Assembly (NCBI GenBank): GCA_012729555.1
Contig: JAAYCX010000003.1
Span: 1 to 55,334 of the forward strand
Length of the DNA stretch: 55,334 bases
Direction of reading: 5' to 3'
Source of the DNA: Acidobacteriota bacterium
GTDB taxonomy: Bacteria > Acidobacteriota > UBA6911
Shown in pieces: positions 192 through 55,136 of this stretch (position 1 is its first letter; each line of letters begins with the position of its first letter). A program made the position numbers and the translations under genes. Below the pieces are notes generated by a model, which worked only from the letters and a program-made list of their open reading frames with translations, was not told the DNA's origin and searched no databases.

Positions 192-1943
192 CTACCGCCA
201 CTTGTCGATGTCGATCGCCTGGCCGGGTCTCAGGCCGCCGGCCATCCAGTAGTTGTTGTTGGACGCCCCGGTGACGATGAGGTCGATGCCGCCCCCCATC
301 ATGCCAAAGCCGCCGCGGCCTCCGGGCTTCGCCGCCGGAGCCGCGGCCTTGGCCGCCGGGTCCGGCTGCGTGACGTACTTGTTCAGGGCTTCCACCGTGT
401 CGAATCCGGCGTCCTTGACGAAATTGGCGATCGGCGGACTCAGGATGATGAAGGTCCCGAACAGACCGGGATTCTGCTGTTCATAGATGCCCTTGATGAT
501 CTTGGGATAGTCCATGAGCGACTGCCAGGCGTTGACCTTCCAGTTCGCCGCGGAAAGAACGCCCCATCCGCTCAGCAAGGTGACGACATTGTCGCCTCTC
601 TTGTACTTGGGGGAGGCGCCGCCCGGGGCGTTGCCGAAACCGTAACCGCTGCCGGCCCGCGAGTTGGATCTCCTGACGGCGAACGGCTCGAAAGGAGAGG
701 CCTCTTCATTTTCGGCAATGATGGTGGCGAGGGCGTTCTGCGCGTTGCCGACGGTGCCCATGTAGGTCGTGCCGATCTTTCCGCAGTTTCCGCCGTTTAT
801 GGAAATGAGGTTCCAGGCCCTTCCGATCGCGACATTCGCGTGGGCATAGGGTCCCACGGCGCCGACATCGTAGTTGAGCCCGATTTCGTCGCGGATTCTG
901 CCGTTCACCACGGCGGCGGATGCGAAACCATTATCGGAGATATTGATGGATGTCTGGTTGCCCGATGCTATGGCCAGGATGAGCGGGAAATATTCCGGCT
1001 TGGCTCCCGCCATGACCGCATTGACGGCACAATCCTTGACCGTATAGGTCCAGGTATCGCCGGCGTCGGATCCGGGATTCATGCGGCCGACCACTTCATC
1101 GGGTGCGTGGCTGGTACCTTTCAGCATATCCTCGACCTTTTCTTCGGTCGGAAGAATGATCGGCATGAAATCGGTGTATCTCTTTTCCAGGTACAATTTC
1201 TGCAGCTCATCCGCCGTGCCGGTATACGTGGCCGGGCCCCTGTCTCTTCTGAGTTCCCCCGTTTTCTTCTCTTCGGCGGTCAGGGGTTTGGTAAGCATCT
1301 CCACCATCTCGGCCATGGCGGGCTTCCCCGTAACCGGGCTCTTCCCCTCGATGACCTGCTTTTTGATCTGTTCGTTCGTTTTTGCCCAGATCGGACCACG
1401 GATATAGTGAATCCGGACATTGGGCATGCCGGCCAGCATGGCCACTTCGGTTTCCTGTTCTTCAAACTCCGACAGGAGAACGGGCACCGCCGGTTTTTTC
1501 AGATCTGACTGAACTTCGATTGCGAGGCGAACCGCCCCGGGCGCGCAGACACTTCAATGCCCGAGGGCGAAGATCACCGCATCCGCCTTCTCCTGCAGTT
1601 CCTTCTTCAGTGCCGGCGTGAGGTTGCTCATGCCGGTTCTCTGGTCCACGATGGTGGTCTTGGGGTAGTTGGCCTGGAACCACTTCTTGTATTCTTCCAT
1701 CAGGCGTTCCGTGTTGGGAAAACCCGTGTTGACCAGGTAGAGCGTTTTGCCGTCCAGCGTGGACAGCGGCTGGGCCATCTGCTTTGCCGTTATCGGCGGC
1801 GGTGTTCCCATCGGATTGAGCACGGTGATCTTCTCGGCGGTCGAGGCCGCCTTTTTCCCCTGTGCCTGAGTCAAAGCAGGCAGGCTGCAAAACAGGCCGA
1901 TGCAGAGGGCCCCTATCGCAGCAATCATCAAATGCCGTTTCAT
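192..1943 (-). CDS. UGSC-family selenoprotein, exported, Sec in a U-S-V-C motif
   Basis: Two open frames (1943-1557 and 1553-192) lie in the same reading frame and are separated only by a TGA at 1556-1554. Read as selenocysteine, it gives one 583-residue protein. Residues 1-28 form a Sec signal peptide ending near LTQAQ. A UGSC-type domain follows, with the VLNPMG start motif and Sec130 in GH-U-S-V-C (Cys133). The C-terminal domain, roughly 190-583, carries the pattern NAVMAGA, NGRIRDEIG, AIGRAW, ENEEASPFEP. The paralogue at 44646-46367 has the same layout. GGAGG lies 7 nt before the ATG. The motif is USVC where the family usually has UGSC. No good separate start precedes the second half: its first candidate is GTG 1487, with 22 stop-free codons before it. 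A redox role at the UxxC site is inferred; the substrate is unknown. No sel genes lie in the window. Confidence 0.85.
1523..1556 (-). promoter_or_regulatory. UGA codon with candidate bacterial SECIS hairpin
   Basis: After the UGA (1556-1554) and 14 nt, the minus-strand RNA can form a 6-bp stem, CGGGGC pairing with GCCUCG (one G-U pair), closed by the loop GGUUC. The loop begins 20 nt after the UGA and has the GGU that bacterial SECIS apical loops often show. The fold was done by eye; no energy was computed. Confidence 0.6.
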
Positions 1944-2191
1944 TCCTGATCCTCCTTCAAAGAGAAATTAAATACCAAGCATGTAAACCCGAGAGATCGA
2001 TCCCCGCCACTAAAGTCGCAGCTGGAGCTGGATGCCGACGCATCACCCTCGTTTTTTCTCCATCCCGATCGGGGAAATATTGAGGCCTAAGCTCCTGACA
2101 GCCCACGGTCGGATCTCGCAAAAATCATCGCAACTCCAACCATTTCAGCAGGATAGTCAGAATCAGCTGCCCTTTCCATCCTGAAGCCCGT

Positions 2192-44645: not shown

Positions 44646-46367
44646 CTAGTACCTCTCGTAATTGGGTTTGAGAATCTTGTATTTTGCCACCAGCTTGTCC
44701 CAGTTCTTCGGCAATTCGATCTTCCTGGTCACGAGCTCGTTTTCGAAAAAGCCGGGTCCGGCACTCCGCAGCAGGCCTATAAACGAGCCCGGCCCGCCGG
44801 CAACCAGGATCATCAGGCTTTTGTCGAGGTCGACTTTTGCGGGCCCGGAATCGCCCGGAAGACCCGTTGGAGCTGCAGCGCCTGGAGCGATCCGGGAAGC
44901 CAGGTAGTCTTTGACTTTCTGCCTCGTGTAGCCTTCGCTTGCCAACACCTTCGCCCAGGAAGGGATGAGAATGACACTGGACATGGTGGTGCTCACCATT
45001 CCGGAAAGCGTGTTCAGAATCCCTTGTGCGTCCGTCCCGCCCGGGACGGTCTGAATGAACGTGTTGGGGAAGAACACGGTGACGGTGTTGTCTTCCCTGG
45101 CAAAACCCCTTTCGACGCTGAGAGGTTCCCACGGGCTCGCCTCTTCGTCCTCACCAATAACGAGGCTGTACTTGCCAGGATTGCCGATGACGCCCATGTC
45201 CTCGATGGCCTTCCTGGCTCCACCGATATTCCGGACGATCAGTCCGACGGCCCGGCCGATGGCGGCGTTGGCGATATCTCCGGGACTCAGCGCACCCGAA
45301 CTGCAGTTGACGTTGATGTCTCTTCGTATCGGGCCGTTGATGGCAAGGAAAGGGGCCCACGATCCGGTACTGACCTCAAACGTGTCAAACCTCGATTTCG
45401 GATCGGCGAAGGCCTCAACCGTCGCGATCAGAACCGGCATGTGGATTGGAAGCGCGCCGGCCATCACCGCGTTAATCGCGATTTTTTCTATCGTGGCTTT
45501 TCCTTTTCTCGGAATGATCTTCGATACAACATGGCCGGGCGGCAGGTCCGTTCCCATCAACATTTCCGCTACCGCTTCCTCTGTCGGTGGGATTATGGGC
45601 AGCCCGTCGGTCCATCCCTTTCTATAGTAGAACTGGTTCACATCTTGAAGGCTCCCCTTGAAGGCGACTCTGGGAGTTTTGCCCGTCGACTGCCTGGGGG
45701 ATTTTTCCTCGGCGCTCAGCGGACGGACCAGGGCATCCACCACATCCTTCATCGCCGCCGCAATGCCTTCTTCTATTTCGGCCTTAACCGTTGATTCACA
45801 CGCCACGGATTCGCCCACGATTCGGATTCCGGGCACTCCCTTGCTCGACGCGGCGGACTGAGCATCCGCGACAAAACCATGATTAGCCAGTAACACGACT
45901 GGCTTGCCAAAGTCCTCGATCGCAATCCCATTGTAAACGAGGTACTTTGTGCAGGACCCTCAATCACCGACGACGGCTATGGCCGCGTCAAGGCTTTTGG
46001 CCCAAGCCGTGAATTTGTCTTTGTTACTTGTCTCGATCTCATTCACATTCGCACCGACGGAATGGTATATGAGGGTCTGGGCGTCGGGATACATGGCGCC
46101 CAATCGCGCTATGATGGACTCCGCAATCGGCATGGCCGCCCGCTTGGGATTGACAAATATTCCGATTTTCTTTCCCGCAAGGCTCGAGAGCCTAGGGGAA
46201 ATGCCCCGCAGCGGGATCGGATCGACGTCCGCCCAGGGACTGAGAACTTCAAATTGAGTGTCTGGCGCCTTGGGTTTGGAAGCTGCAGCCGGCTGAGCCC
46301 AGGACGAACCCTGGACGGACAGGACCGCGAGAACTCCAATGGAAAGCGCCGCTAAAAATTTGCGCAT
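44646..46367 (-). CDS. UGSC-family selenoprotein, exported, canonical U-G-S-C motif
   Basis: Two open frames (46367-45963 and 45959-44646) share one reading frame, interrupted by a single TGA at 45962-45960. Decoded as selenocysteine it gives a 573-residue protein with a signal peptide (residues 1-25, ending SSWA). The motif is VVGD-U-G-S-C-T, Sec136 and Cys139, exactly the motif that names the UGSC family. The C-terminal domain has TDGLPIIPPTEEAV, AINAVMAGALP, NGPIRRDINVN, AIGRAVGLIVRNIGGAR and GEDEEASPWEPLSVERGF. It is the paralogue of the gene at 192-1943. GGAGAAGGAG precedes the ATG. Family function is not established; a Sec/Cys redox centre in the periplasm is inferred. In part it resembles a two-protein system in other bacteria, fused here. 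Confidence 0.92.
45914..45962 (-). promoter_or_regulatory. UGA codon with candidate bacterial SECIS hairpin
   Basis: Seventeen nt after the UGA the minus-strand RNA can fold CCUCG with CGAGG as an outer stem, then CAAU with AUUG as an inner stem, with the loop GGG at the tip. Small mismatches separate the stems. The tip lies about 30 nt after the UGA, within the usual range. Folded by eye only. Confidence 0.55.
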
Positions 46368-48595: not shown

Positions 48596-50635
48596 TTAGC
48601 CCAGTTTGCTCTTGGACTGAAGCACGTCGGCAACATGCTTCATCCCCAGATCTTCGAGCGTCTTGCGAGTGGGATAGCCGGAATCGGGATTCCAGCCTTC
48701 AACATTATAGAAATGGGTCTTGAACTGATCGACTCCTTCCTTGCTGAAATAGAGTTCTCTGCAGTTCTGGATTTCCCATTTGCCGTCTTTGAGTATGGGC
48801 AGATTATTGTAAAAACCGCAATAGGAGGCGCCGGGCCGGTAATGATAGCCCGTAAAATTCTCCATTTTCTTATGTCTGCCCTGCATCACGAAAATTGCCC
48901 GTTTCAGAGTCCAGGCACGCCGGCCGATTTCCAGCCCGTCGTCGAAAGAATGGTTTCTTCCGGTGATGGCATTGAGGAATGTGGGTTCGGCGGTGGGAGT
49001 GCGCCCGTTGGCGCCAAGGTTGCAGTAACCCCAATCGCAGAAGCCGACCGATTCCTTGTAATAGTTCCAGTAGTGCATATGCCAGGCAACCCATTCGGCT
49101 TTGTATCTGGAATAAATTCCAGTTTTAAAAGCCTGGTCCCCCTGCCAGGTATAATCGAACCATAGCGGTTCGTTCCTGAGAGTCCCGGCTGCATAATTTT
49201 TCACCTGCTGTTCAGCATCACCTCGCCCCCAGGAAATATCGTGGCTGTTGATATCCCTGGAATCGAGCAGATTGCCGTAGGCCCATTCGACATTGGGCAT
49301 GGACCAGTGATCCATGAATCCCCACATCGTCTGCCGGGCGAAGGTATTGAAGTCGTCGGTTCGTCCCAGCGCTTCGACAAAGCGGGCGGTTCCTTCCCCG
49401 AGGAGCCGGCCAATGCCCTCGCGGTTGGCGATCGCTCGTCCGTACATTTCCATGAATTGCGGGCTGGGGAATTTATCCATCGGAAGGGGCGCCATGTCGA
49501 ACTTGGTGCCGGGACCGATGACCTTCATTTCATACATCTTCATCATGTACCAGCCCAGCGCGGAGTAGGCGGGTATATTCGGCTGGATGGGGAAGTCCGG
49601 ATTATGGGAAGTCGGGAAGGACATGGGGCCCTGGAAACAGGTTTCCATGCCATTGATCCCGAACTGCTGAATGATATCGGTCGCTTTCCGATTGATATCC
49701 GCCGGGAGCGTTACGCCATTGGACTGTTCCTTGGTGATGGAGAACCAGGTGGATTCCGCGCAATCATCGGAATCCGCGCTGAAAGCCCGGTTCCGGTTGT
49801 GACACATTCTGCTGCCCATGCCGCAACCCGCGCAGCAGGAAGAAATATCATTTCCACCGCCGCCGAATCCGCCTCCACCGCGGGCGCCCTTGAAATATTT
49901 CTCCTTGGCGTCCACCAGCGTCTTGGGATCGGCGATTTTGAGACTGCCGGATCCCACGACCGCGACCGCTTTCAGGTTTTTGGACCCGAAAACACCGCCG
50001 AATCCACCCTGTCCCGCGCCGCTGCCGCCGCCATGCACCAGGGAAGCAACTCGGGTCATATTCTCACCGGCAGCCCCGATCGTGACGATTGCGGGTCTTT
50101 GCAGCGTATAGCCGCCATCCAACAGCTGCCAGTCCATTCCGTAGCGGACGCCGGTCCTTTTCCAGATTTCTTCCTGGCACTTCCATGTCGTCATGCCCCA
50201 TAAATCTTTGGCGTCTTCCAGGGTGACTTTGTCATCGACGATATTGATATATACCGGAGATTCCGCCTTGCCGATAACCGCCACGCCATCCCAGCCGGCC
50301 AGCTTGAGCATCGCGGCAAATGTGCCGCCGAAATTGCTGTGACTCCACCACTGAATCGGATAGCACTGCGGAGACATGCCCGAAACGCTTGTCCTGGCGG
50401 CAAAAGGGATTCCCGTTCCCGAGACGGCGCCGGTCATCAAAAAGACCATATTCTGGGGATGGAATGCGTCATCGAGGTTCCATTTCCCCGGAGCTACGCT
50501 GTATTCCCAGAATATGGCTGTGGAGGTGCCGTGCCCTCCGCCGTACATTGCATACTGGTCCGTGTCCAGTGCTTTGATTTCCCTGGTTGTCAGATCGACC
50601 AATAAGATTTTCCCACCGAATCCTGGTGTTGCCAT
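48596..50635 (-). CDS. Aldehyde ferredoxin oxidoreductase family enzyme, copy 1
   Basis: The protein has 679 residues, in the range of the AOR family (including BamB-type subunits). The N-terminal domain has GGKILLVDLTTREIKAL, GTGIPFAARTSVSGMSPQ and SNFGGTFAAMLKLAGWDGVAVIGKAESPVYI, which binds the bis-pyranopterin tungsten (or Mo) cofactor. VHGGGSGAGQGGFGGVFGSKNLKAVAV follows. The cluster region has C-A-G-C-GMGSRM-C. There is no signal peptide. The four-cluster ferredoxin gene lies 15 bp upstream on the same strand. The substrate may be an aldehyde, an acid or an aromatic acyl-CoA; sequence does not decide. Confidence 0.9.
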   Translation of the reverse strand: MATPGFGGKILLVDLTTREIKALDTDQYAMYGGGHGTSTAIFWEYSVAPGKWNLDDAFHPQNMVFLMTGAVSGTGIPFAARTSVSGMSPQCYPIQWWSHSNFGGTFAAMLKLAGWDGVAVIGKAESPVYINIVDDKVTLEDAKDLWGMTTWKCQEEIWKRTGVRYGMDWQLLDGGYTLQRPAIVTIGAAGENMTRVASLVHGGGSGAGQGGFGGVFGSKNLKAVAVVGSGSLKIADPKTLVDAKEKYFKGARGGGGFGGGGNDISSCCAGCGMGSRMCHNRNRAFSADSDDCAESTWFSITKEQSNGVTLPADINRKATDIIQQFGINGMETCFQGPMSFPTSHNPDFPIQPNIPAYSALGWYMMKMYEMKVIGPGTKFDMAPLPMDKFPSPQFMEMYGRAIANREGIGRLLGEGTARFVEALGRTDDFNTFARQTMWGFMDHWSMPNVEWAYGNLLDSRDINSHDISWGRGDAEQQVKNYAAGTLRNEPLWFDYTWQGDQAFKTGIYSRYKAEWVAWHMHYWNYYKESVGFCDWGYCNLGANGRTPTAEPTFLNAITGRNHSFDDGLEIGRRAWTLKRAIFVMQGRHKKMENFTGYHYRPGASYCGFYNNLPILKDGKWEIQNCRELYFSKEGVDQFKTHFYNVEGWNPDSGYPTRKTLEDLGMKHVADVLQSKSKLG

Positions 50636-50650
50636 AATAGCCTCCTCTCT

Positions 50651-51394
50651 CTAGTGACCTGCCTCTGTTTTGGGTTTGGGTTTAGCTCCAAGGCCGCCGA
50701 ATGGCATTTTGCCTTTCGGGGGAGGAGGCGCCAGGTCCACTTCGTAGCCACCAGTTTCCAATGGAAGTCTATCTACGACTTTTAGAACTTGTTTGGGACA
50801 AGCCTCGACACAAGCCTGGGTCCCGTCTACCCCACCCTTCTTGTTGAAAAAAGGTGTGTCGGTACACAAATCGCACTTCGTCGATTTTTTTGTTTTGGGG
50901 TTCCAGATGGTGCGATGAGGAGTCTGCGGACACATTCTGATACAGGTCTGGCAGCCAATGCATTTTTCGGCATTGATCATTCTGATGTTGCCGTTCTCGG
51001 CGCTGATATGACAGGCGCCCGTAGGGCAGTACTTCACGCAGAGGGGTTCCGGGCATTGCTTGCATACATGCTGGATAATATCCTCAGGATATTCATTGAG
51101 GACTGCCCGGTGCATTTGAATCCGGGACAGCGAAAAACTGACCTCCCCGTCATGGGCCATGGAACAGGCTATCATGCAGCCGTAACACCCGGCGCAGTGC
51201 TTGCTGTCATAGACCAGGTATTTGGTTGAAAGCGGGTAGGTTATCTTATCCTGAGCAACGGCAACCGGAGCCGCTGTTCCCAGAACGGTAAGAGCGCCGC
51301 CAGCGATGGCGGTCCCGCTCCCTACTACAAAATCTCGACGTGAAAACTTCTTTTCTTCGGCCTTCTCAGGCGCGGGTTTACTATCTCTAGCCAT
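50651..51394 (-). CDS. Four-cluster ferredoxin-like subunit with Tat signal
   Basis: The protein has 247 residues. Residues 19-47 carry the twin-arginine signal SRRDFVVGSGTAIAGGALTVLG. Four [4Fe-4S] sets follow: CAGCYGCMIAC, CKQCPEPLCVKYC, CIGCQTCIRMC, and CDLC paired with CVEAC; this is the DmsB/HybA/NrfC-type layout of periplasm-facing electron-transfer subunits. A Pro/Lys-rich tail ends the protein. The AOR gene follows by 15 bp. GGAGGA lies 8 nt before ATG 51394; an in-frame start at 51409 is less likely. It probably passes electrons to or from the AOR subunit. Confidence 0.9.
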   Translation of the reverse strand: MARDSKPAPEKAEEKKFSRRDFVVGSGTAIAGGALTVLGTAAPVAVAQDKITYPLSTKYLVYDSKHCAGCYGCMIACSMAHDGEVSFSLSRIQMHRAVLNEYPEDIIQHVCKQCPEPLCVKYCPTGACHISAENGNIRMINAEKCIGCQTCIRMCPQTPHRTIWNPKTKKSTKCDLCTDTPFFNKKGGVDGTQACVEACPKQVLKVVDRLPLETGGYEVDLAPPPPKGKMPFGGLGAKPKPKTEAGH

Positions 51395-51621
51395 GAATGA
51401 CTCCTCCATTGGGATCCATGAGTAATTTACACTATTCGGCGGATCCTCCGAACTCTTCTTGATACTACGGCACTGACAGGCTCTTTATTTCCCGATTCTC
51501 CGGCGGCGCCCAGCGTCCGGGGCGTTGCCGAAAAAGTCGAAAACCCATTGGTTGCGTGTTCCACCAGGTGAAACTGACACAATCCCCTGTATGCAGGAGG
51601 GATAGGAAGGATCGGCTGCCG

Positions 51622-53111: not shown

Positions 53112-55136
53112 TCAGACGCCCAGCCTCCCCCTGGCAGCCATGGTATCTGCCATCCTCTTCATGCCCAAATCTTCCAAAGTCTTTCTGGTCGGCCAGCCGT
53201 GGTCGGTATCCCAGCCCTCCAGTTTGTAGAAGTGGGTTTTAAATTCCTCCACGCCACCCTTGTCCAGGTACATATCCGGGAGGTTGTCCCAACGCCATTT
53301 GCCGTCTTCGTATACCGGGACCCCACCAAAGGCGGCCATCCCGCCGGCCCCGGGCCTGTACATGTACGGGAAGAACAATTCCTGCTCCCGGCTGAGCCCG
53401 GCCACGGTTCGAATGGACCGCTCCAGGGTCCAGATCTTCCTGCCGGTTTCCATGGTATCGGCAAAGGAACACTTGCTGCCGGTGACCGCCCGGTAATAAT
53501 TCATTTCCATTTCGGGAGTGACCGTGTTCAGCCGCGGCAGGATAAATTCGCAGAAGGCCATGGATTCGTTCCAGAAACTTGCATAATGCCGGGTCCAGGC
53601 CACTTCCTTGGCCTTATGCTCGGAATAGATGCCGGTTTTTCTGGCTTCCTTTCCTTTCCAGGCATAGTTGAACATGAAGATATCGTCATTGTATGGAATG
53701 ACCCTGGCGGAAAGCCGTTCCAATACCTTCTCAATGGGAGTGCCATCCCGGGAAGTCCCGACGGCCGAGCTGAACCCATGCCAACTGGGATCGCCTGCTC
53801 CGAGCAGGTAGCTGTAGGCCCATTCCACGTACGGCATGGTCCAATGCCCGGTGGCCCCCCAGGCCGGGAACCGCAAGGCGCCATTCTCCATGTCCTGTTC
53901 CAGCCGCCCCCATCTCTTGGCCGCCTCGCAGACGCCTTCGGCGATGGCGTCGCCGATTCCTTCGCGCCGGGCTATCGCATCGAGGAACGCTTCGCGGAAG
54001 ACCAGCTCTCCCCATTGGTCCATGGGCAGGGGAGCCGATTCGATCTGCTTTCCCGGACCCAGCACGCCCTGCTCATAGAGGTACCGCAGATACCAGCCGA
54101 TCCCCGTTTCCATCGGCACTTTACCGTGGAAGAACTCCGGCGCATCGGGAACGTCCGACACGAACGCTCCTGTGAAATGCGCCGCCCAGGAACTGGCCCC
54201 GTATTTCATCAAGGCCCCGGCGGCGCGGTCCGCAGCCTCCGTTCCACGATCGCCCAGCCACAACTGACTGGTGCACATGGTTTCGCCGCCATACAGGGTG
54301 TTGCGTCGACGGTCGGCGCGGATGCAGGGATTACAGGAACCGTCCCCGGCCACCGCGGGACCGAATTGTCCTGTCATGATCGGCGTCTGCATATCGGCCA
54401 ATCTGGCATCCAGGACGCCCTTGGGATCGGCCATCGTTACATTGCCGGTCCCTGTCACGCTGATGGCCTTTAAATTCTTCGCCCCGAAAACCGAGCCGTA
54501 GCCGCTGACGAGGCTGCTGCAGCCGCTGCCGTGAATCAAAGACGCCAGACTGGACCTGGCTTCTCCGATCGGGCCGATACATACGATCTGAGGCCTGGCC
54601 GTTGTATAGGTATTCCCGATCTGTTGCCATTCATCGCCGAATCGGGTCCTGCCGGCAACCATGGATTCAATCCGGGTCTGAGTCGTCCAGGTATCCAGGC
54701 CCCAGAGCTCCTTCGCTTCCTCGATTTTGACCTGGTCGTTGATGATATTGATCCATACCGGCCTTTCCGCCCGGCCTTCCACTATCACGCCATCCCACCC
54801 CGCCAACTTCAACATGGTGGCAAAACGGCCGCCAAAATTGCCGCGGTGGAATTCCCGCGTGGGAAAGGTTTCCGGGCAGATGCCGCAGACACTGGTTCTG
54901 CCGGCTCCGGGAACGCCCGTAGCCGCCAATCGACCCGCCATGATGGGAAGGACATGACGCGGATCGTGGGGATCCTTCAAATCCCATTCGCCCGGAGCGA
55001 CCGCGAGATCCCAGAAGATGGCCGCGCCCATACCATAGCCGCCGCCGTATTCCTCGTATTTTGCGGTGTCGATCGTGCTGATTTCTCTCGTTGTCAGGTT
55101 GACCCGAGCAATTTTACCCGTGAATCCGTAGGCCAT
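53112..55136 (-). CDS. Aldehyde ferredoxin oxidoreductase family enzyme, copy 2
   Basis: The protein has 674 residues. It has the same layout as the gene at 48596-50635: GKIARVNLTTREISTI, VPGAGRTSVCGICPE, GNFGGRFATMLKLAGWDGVIVEGRAERPVWI, IHGSGCSSLVSGYGSVFGAKNLKAISV. The cluster region reads C-NP-C-IRAD, with Asp where a third Cys might be expected and the next Cys 17 residues on. The C-terminus of both copies ends with a shared HFYKLEGWDTDHGWPTRKTLEDLGMKRMAD pattern. No signal peptide. AAGGAGG precedes ATG 55136. A truncated ferredoxin gene lies 15 bp upstream, so the pair repeats the first operon. Confidence 0.88.
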   Translation of the reverse strand: MAYGFTGKIARVNLTTREISTIDTAKYEEYGGGYGMGAAIFWDLAVAPGEWDLKDPHDPRHVLPIMAGRLAATGVPGAGRTSVCGICPETFPTREFHRGNFGGRFATMLKLAGWDGVIVEGRAERPVWINIINDQVKIEEAKELWGLDTWTTQTRIESMVAGRTRFGDEWQQIGNTYTTARPQIVCIGPIGEARSSLASLIHGSGCSSLVSGYGSVFGAKNLKAISVTGTGNVTMADPKGVLDARLADMQTPIMTGQFGPAVAGDGSCNPCIRADRRRNTLYGGETMCTSQLWLGDRGTEAADRAAGALMKYGASSWAAHFTGAFVSDVPDAPEFFHGKVPMETGIGWYLRYLYEQGVLGPGKQIESAPLPMDQWGELVFREAFLDAIARREGIGDAIAEGVCEAAKRWGRLEQDMENGALRFPAWGATGHWTMPYVEWAYSYLLGAGDPSWHGFSSAVGTSRDGTPIEKVLERLSARVIPYNDDIFMFNYAWKGKEARKTGIYSEHKAKEVAWTRHYASFWNESMAFCEFILPRLNTVTPEMEMNYYRAVTGSKCSFADTMETGRKIWTLERSIRTVAGLSREQELFFPYMYRPGAGGMAAFGGVPVYEDGKWRWDNLPDMYLDKGGVEEFKTHFYKLEGWDTDHGWPTRKTLEDLGMKRMADTMAARGRLGV

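Follow-up and report, generated by a model that had tools for sequence, protein, structure and literature searches.

A probable two-domain UGSC-family selenoprotein and its multiplication in a genus of Acidobacteriota

The gene on the minus strand at positions 1943-192 of contig JAAYCX010000003.1 (assembly GCA_012729555.1, an Acidobacteriota bacterium) almost certainly encodes a selenoprotein, in which the TGA at 1556-1554 specifies selenocysteine (Sec, U). The window, that is, the whole stretch of DNA analysed, is 55,334 nucleotides long and belongs to a genome of 3.83 Mb that is 98.9% complete (tool-given figures). As the preliminary description had it, this TGA is in frame with the ATG at 1943 and the TAG at 194-192. 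It is the sole in-frame break, and translation through it yields a two-domain protein of 583 residues with U130 in the context GHUSVCAPG (motif U130-S-V-C133). Sec coding, family membership, the two-part build and the expansion of the gene can be read from the sequences. Five points are new here: the presence of 18 TGA-bearing copies in one genome, with a many-copy state across the genus; the nature of the C-terminal half, an unnamed domain that is elsewhere encoded by its own gene beside a short UGSC gene; a thioredoxin-reductase-like gene that is often adjacent to UGSC outside the genus; the link, by profile comparison, between the Sec domain and that of GrdB/PrdB; and a paralogue with four in-frame TGAs in two sister species. 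The best explanation, which we consider probable, is a two-domain Sec reductase related to GrdB/PrdB, in which a former subunit has been fused and to which an external donor of the thioredoxin reductase (TrxR) type would supply electrons. The features in and around the gene are the following.

192..1943, minus strand: UGSC-family two-domain selenoprotein gene, almost certainly (ATG 1943-1941, TAG 194-192; read-through translation; PF24696, 68.4 bits)
1951..1957, minus strand: AAGGAGG, Shine-Dalgarno-like, upstream of the ATG (direct sequence reading)
1860..1943, minus strand: probable N-terminal signal peptide, residues ~1-28 (suggested by sequence inspection and low model confidence in the region)
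1554..1556, minus strand: TGA, almost certainly selenocysteine 130 (TGA in orthologues of 91-98% identity; Cys in 8 homologues; selA-D present)
1523..1539, minus strand: candidate bacterial SECIS hairpin, CGGGGCG-GUU-CGCCUCG, loop 1532-1530, beginning 17 nt past the T of the TGA (covariation)
1353..1823, minus strand: UGSC (Sec) domain, residues 41-197 (PF24696; flavodoxin-like three-layer fold in the model; fold comparison; profile alignment with the Sec domain of GrdB/PrdB)
195..1250, minus strand: conserved unnamed C-terminal domain, residues 232-583 (confident model; separate adjoining gene at 9 loci elsewhere)
44646..46367, minus strand: paralogous selenoprotein gene, 573 residues, motif U-G-S-C (TGA 45962-45960; U136 in GDUGSCTKY)
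48596..50635, minus strand: gene of the aldehyde ferredoxin oxidoreductase family close to the paralogue, regarded as a loose neighbour
50651-51409: ferredoxin-like gene, likewise regarded as a loose neighbour

Selenocysteine coding at TGA 1556-1554

The genome carries the complete Sec machinery: selB (380 bits), the tRNA-Sec gene selC (72 bits), selD (369 bits) and selA (564 bits) were each found above the cut-off in a genome search. The selD gene (G000:C9:39575-40507) has an in-frame TGA of its own. In the orthologues of three sister species (98, 92, and 91% identity) the TGA is retained. For these three orthologues dN/dS is 0.11-0.23 upstream of the TGA and 0-0.11 downstream, where the compared region includes the 23 codons that precede the next possible start; the frame is under purifying selection on either side of the TGA.

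Of 79 loci from public genomes, the majority have TGA at the Sec site and eight have Cys; the eight Cys homologues all share the motif GHCSTCAPAV and form a single clade (100% SH-aLRT). Homologues carry either the TGA or an uninterrupted Cys codon, rather than a stop followed by a new start. Four others are without one or both active residues, with Leu (L057, L062) or Met (L082) at the Sec site or without the second Cys (L107), and because of these losses some family members may do other work.

The hairpin that had been described behind the TGA exists, although not as the 6-bp structure first given: it has seven pairs, including one G.U, at 1539-1523, and its apical loop, GUU, has the G expected of a bacterial SECIS. 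Its folding energy is not unusual when compared with shuffled sequences (z +0.6 to +0.8), so that energy was not used as evidence and conservation carries the case. In the clade of 1943-192, 94% of the pair cells hold, and covariation is 0.148 against 0.073 in shuffled alignments (3 of 500 shuffles as high). Across 30 wider homologues, in which the hairpin was scored in another register, shifted by a few bases towards the TGA, the corresponding values are 91% and 0.282 against 0.159 (0 of 500). The homologous place forms at most three pairs in the eight Cys forms, compared with four to six in Sec forms of the same protein motif. The hairpin therefore tracks the TGA rather than the protein sequence, which we regard as the strongest single argument for Sec. 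In the UGSC-proper subgroup (GDUGSCTKY), which includes the paralogue at 46367-44646, a simple hairpin scan gave weaker hairpins or none.

A reading of the TGA as a true stop, whether in a decayed gene, through a sequencing error or between two separate genes, has very little probability. Table 11 does translate TGA as stop, and the second half contains a start-like codon. Against this, a TGA occupies the same site in the 18 copies of the genome and in many copies of the sister species, it is accompanied by the hairpin, selection on both sides spans the gap to the next start, and the Cys homologues run uninterrupted. The sel genes, the conserved TGA, the selection, the hairpin, and the Cys homologues thus agree with the selenoprotein that the preliminary description had called probable.

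Family membership and expansion in the genus

The proposed relationship to the UGSC family is borne out by the Pfam model PF24696, which matches the read-through protein at residues 41-197 with 68.4 bits (cut-off 25). The NCBIfam equivalog NF041046 scores 42.4 bits, below its threshold of 125, and the NCBI naming rule would therefore miss 1943-192. The prediction that annotation misses this variant thus holds for NF041046 but not for PF24696, which recognizes the read-through protein. Ordinary gene calling cuts each gene of the 18-copy set in two.

Within the family U and C are nearly invariant and the middle of the motif is free, as had been suggested; USVC, USLC, USQC, USSC, UGSC, UDGC, UPGC, UDSC, UWGC, and UHGC all occur in the source genome. 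Since the 2008 GOS survey already gives the family motif as UxxC (PMC2398784), the variable middle alone is not new. The 583-residue protein shares Sec-x-x-Cys and a PF24696 score above the cut-off with the UGSC family (PF24696, NF041046), and differs in its USVC motif, its two-domain build, the probable signal peptide and the 18 copies in one genome. The joining of UGSC to a domain called Unknown_1 has been on record since 2008 (PMC2398784, Figure S1A); Unknown_1 is not equated here with the C-terminal domain.

The paralogue at 46367-44646 has its UGA at the matching site, as previously noted, U136 aligning with U130. In total, the source genome contains 18 fused-type genes with one TGA each, together with a 19th homologue (C11) without Sec. 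In one UGSC-fusion homologue of the same genome (L038:6672-8384, minus strand) DMGTS replaces U-x-x-C, leaving neither Sec nor Cys. All 10 species of the genus examined have 10-28 PF24696 matches each, some without TGA. Of 396 genomes sampled across the phylum, 30 that lie outside the genus contain one or two matches each, for the most part in short proteins. In a tree built by a quick method the 18 copies are scattered over many clades, several with their nearest relatives in other phyla, which suggests a mixture of old duplications and transfers. No relatives of the 583-residue protein were found in the viral contigs searched. The gene has been multiplied in the genus, presumably for different substrates. 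For comparison, a 2016 survey of ~5200 genomes recorded 33 UGSC selenoproteins in 26 organisms (PMC5029168), and the largest whole bacterial selenoproteome that we found in the literature comprises 46 genes (PMC12013277). Our literature search found no report of Acidobacteriota as selenoprotein-rich.

A further paralogue, of 591 residues, occurs in two sister species (L188:1100-2875 and L189:967-2742, both minus strand; sequences from fragmented assemblies). It has in-frame TGAs at residues 131, 132, 566, and 568, giving GG-U-U-G-C and GGH-U-V-U-AP, and all four are common to both species at dS ~0.5. Each TGA pair is followed by a strong SECIS-like hairpin with the loop GUU or GUG, two hairpins in all. 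A 2026 review gives two or three Sec residues for a small subset of the families of prokaryotic selenoproteins (PMC13188914). The second TGA pair falls at a conserved V-x-G-G motif of the C-terminal domain; this position of the second Sec pair suggests that V-x-G-G may face the redox site, and hints that redox chemistry extends to this part of the C-terminal domain too.

Two-part build, kinship with GrdB/PrdB and gene neighbours

At 9 of 13 loci examined in other Acidobacteriota the C-terminal domain is encoded by a gene of its own, next to a short UGSC gene and on the same strand; the gap between the domains is 41-273 nt and either gene order occurs. The adjoining separate genes elsewhere and the fusion here argue that the product of 1943-192 would be a fused two-subunit enzyme, both parts of which act together. 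The C-terminal domain has no Pfam or NCBIfam match. Its model is confident, but the best Foldseek E value is 0.067 and the best VIA Z score is 4.8 over 76 residues. Fumarate hydratase, Toblerone-fold proteins and YjgF-like proteins were among the matches, none of them significant, so that these comparisons neither name a fold for the domain nor exclude one. A PDB sequence search using the whole alignment returned nothing useful. Comparison with two GrdE-like proteins (GrdE family PF09338), two sequences only, gave a probability of 0.4-0.6%. A search with PF04592, run without a positive control, gave no match.

The predicted model of the whole protein has a mean pLDDT of 88 and a pTM of 0.88. 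In it the Sec domain is a parallel alpha/beta structure of the flavodoxin or CheY type, and Sec sits where a strand ends and a helix begins. Its top fold matches are of the flavodoxin, CheY, and B12-binding types (Z up to 9.9); the thioredoxin fold is not among them, which is not proof of its absence. A Trx-like fold was supposed for UGSC in the 2008 survey (PMC2398784), but the predicted Sec domain is not obviously Trx-like.

Profile alignment by hhalign of the Sec domain with GrdB/PrdB-like proteins, which had been translated through their TGA, gave a probability of 94% and an E value of 1e-7, with Sec placed on Sec; all hhalign values given here refer to single comparisons. The probability remained at 77-80% when the Sec and Cys columns were masked, whereas 28 unrelated neighbour families reached at most 8% and a reversed template 0.2%. 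The direct GrdB/PrdB model PF07355 did not match the 583-residue protein at E values up to 1, so that remote kinship rather than membership is indicated. A remote relationship of the Sec domain to that of GrdB/PrdB is supported by these comparisons. GrdB/PrdB, the Sec subunit of glycine, sarcosine, betaine, and D-proline reductases, carries out reductive chemistry and is re-armed by the thioredoxin system. It shares with the present protein an alignable Sec domain, a second polypeptide partner and UxxC; the differences are the lack of a direct PF07355 match and a partner domain without similarity to GrdE (PF09338) in a thin test. Many Acidobacteriota (L167-L185) also encode short GrdB/PrdB-like proteins whose ordinary ORF ends at the Sec codon, for example in LLVPV-U-P-x-C, and which standard gene calling would therefore shorten.

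Outside the genus a TrxR-like gene lies near UGSC at 19 of 71 loci, including Cys forms and distant branches (L112, L114, L118), and TIGR01292 is matched by 17 of 95 same-strand neighbour ORFs. Three of these TrxR-like-bearing loci also have a SelB gene nearby. None of the loci of the genus showed a TrxR-like neighbour. The gene neighbourhoods support the TrxR-like protein, of the type of thioredoxin reductase (TIGR01292 and relatives) and encoded adjacent to UGSC, as a candidate electron donor in other bacteria. It is a protein separate from the UGSC protein, and the member examined in full scores 303 bits, below the curated cut-off of 343 for true thioredoxin reductase. ABC transporters, catabolic enzymes and the carboxylate transporters TctC and DctM are also encoded near UGSC outside the genus. 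At two loci (L067, L106; Chelativorans, Microbacterium) malonyl-CoA decarboxylase and acyl-CoA ligase genes precede a pair of Cys-form UGSC and TrxR-like genes, and malonate catabolism may be a clue to the substrate at these two loci.

The source genome has 18 aldehyde ferredoxin oxidoreductase genes, equal in number to the UGSC genes and including those at 48596-50635 and 53112-55136. Four of the 18 UGSC genes lie within 5 kb of such a gene (simulated p 0.012, uncorrected for the choice of distance), and at 10 kb the p value is 0.09; this co-location is a weak hint of an association.

Proposed enzyme and alternative readings

We infer the reaction, substrate and cellular place of the product of 1943-192 as follows. 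SelB and tRNA-Sec would decode UGA 1556-1554 as Sec, with the hairpin at 1539-1523 as their guide. In the N-terminal UGSC domain Sec-x-x-Cys would lie at the strand end of the predicted flavodoxin-like fold, and the C-terminal domain, the putative former subunit fused behind it, would probably bind the substrate. The selenolate may attack a small substrate of the carboxylate type, the Cys three residues past Sec may resolve the intermediate as Se-S, and an external donor of the thioredoxin reductase type may restore the Sec-x-x-Cys pair. The probable signal peptide would lead to export of the protein from the cytoplasm, beyond the reach of a TrxR that stays there, and this counts against TrxR as the donor.

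The same Sec could instead belong to a thiol-disulfide oxidoreductase of thioredoxin-like redox or repair function, acting on protein or peroxide rather than on a small molecule in the GrdB/PrdB manner. In favour of such a role are UxxC, which is the usual redox pair, the Trx-like fold supposed in the 2008 survey (PMC2398784), the TrxR-like neighbour and the probable signal peptide. The parallel flavodoxin-like fold of the confident model, the large conserved partner domain, and the carboxylate and ABC transporters and catabolic enzymes near the genes outside the genus speak against it, and we consider it unlikely. Still less probable is a role in handling metals or metalloids, in which Sec would bind or reduce species of mercury, arsenic, or selenium and the copies would reflect metal exposure: the 2026 review (PMC13188914) connects several prokaryotic selenoproteins with resistance to metals, but no recurring metal-resistance neighbours appeared in the 71 loci, a weak test. 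On balance, a Sec reductase whose mechanism is related to that of GrdB/PrdB is the likelier reading. A wider proposal is tentative and somewhat doubtful, namely that the genus possesses many-copy fused two-subunit Sec reductases that form a third branch alongside the glycine and proline enzymes, each copy having its own substrate and the set including a four-Sec member with two SECIS elements.

UGSC is a selenoprotein family abundant in water samples whose function has so far been unassigned, and a testable idea of that function comes from the GrdB/PrdB kinship taken together with the reductase partner and the two-part build. The 18 genes probably encode reductases with a distant kinship to glycine and proline reductase. 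That a genome of 3.8 Mb has 18 Sec genes from a single family suggests reliance of the metabolism on selenium.
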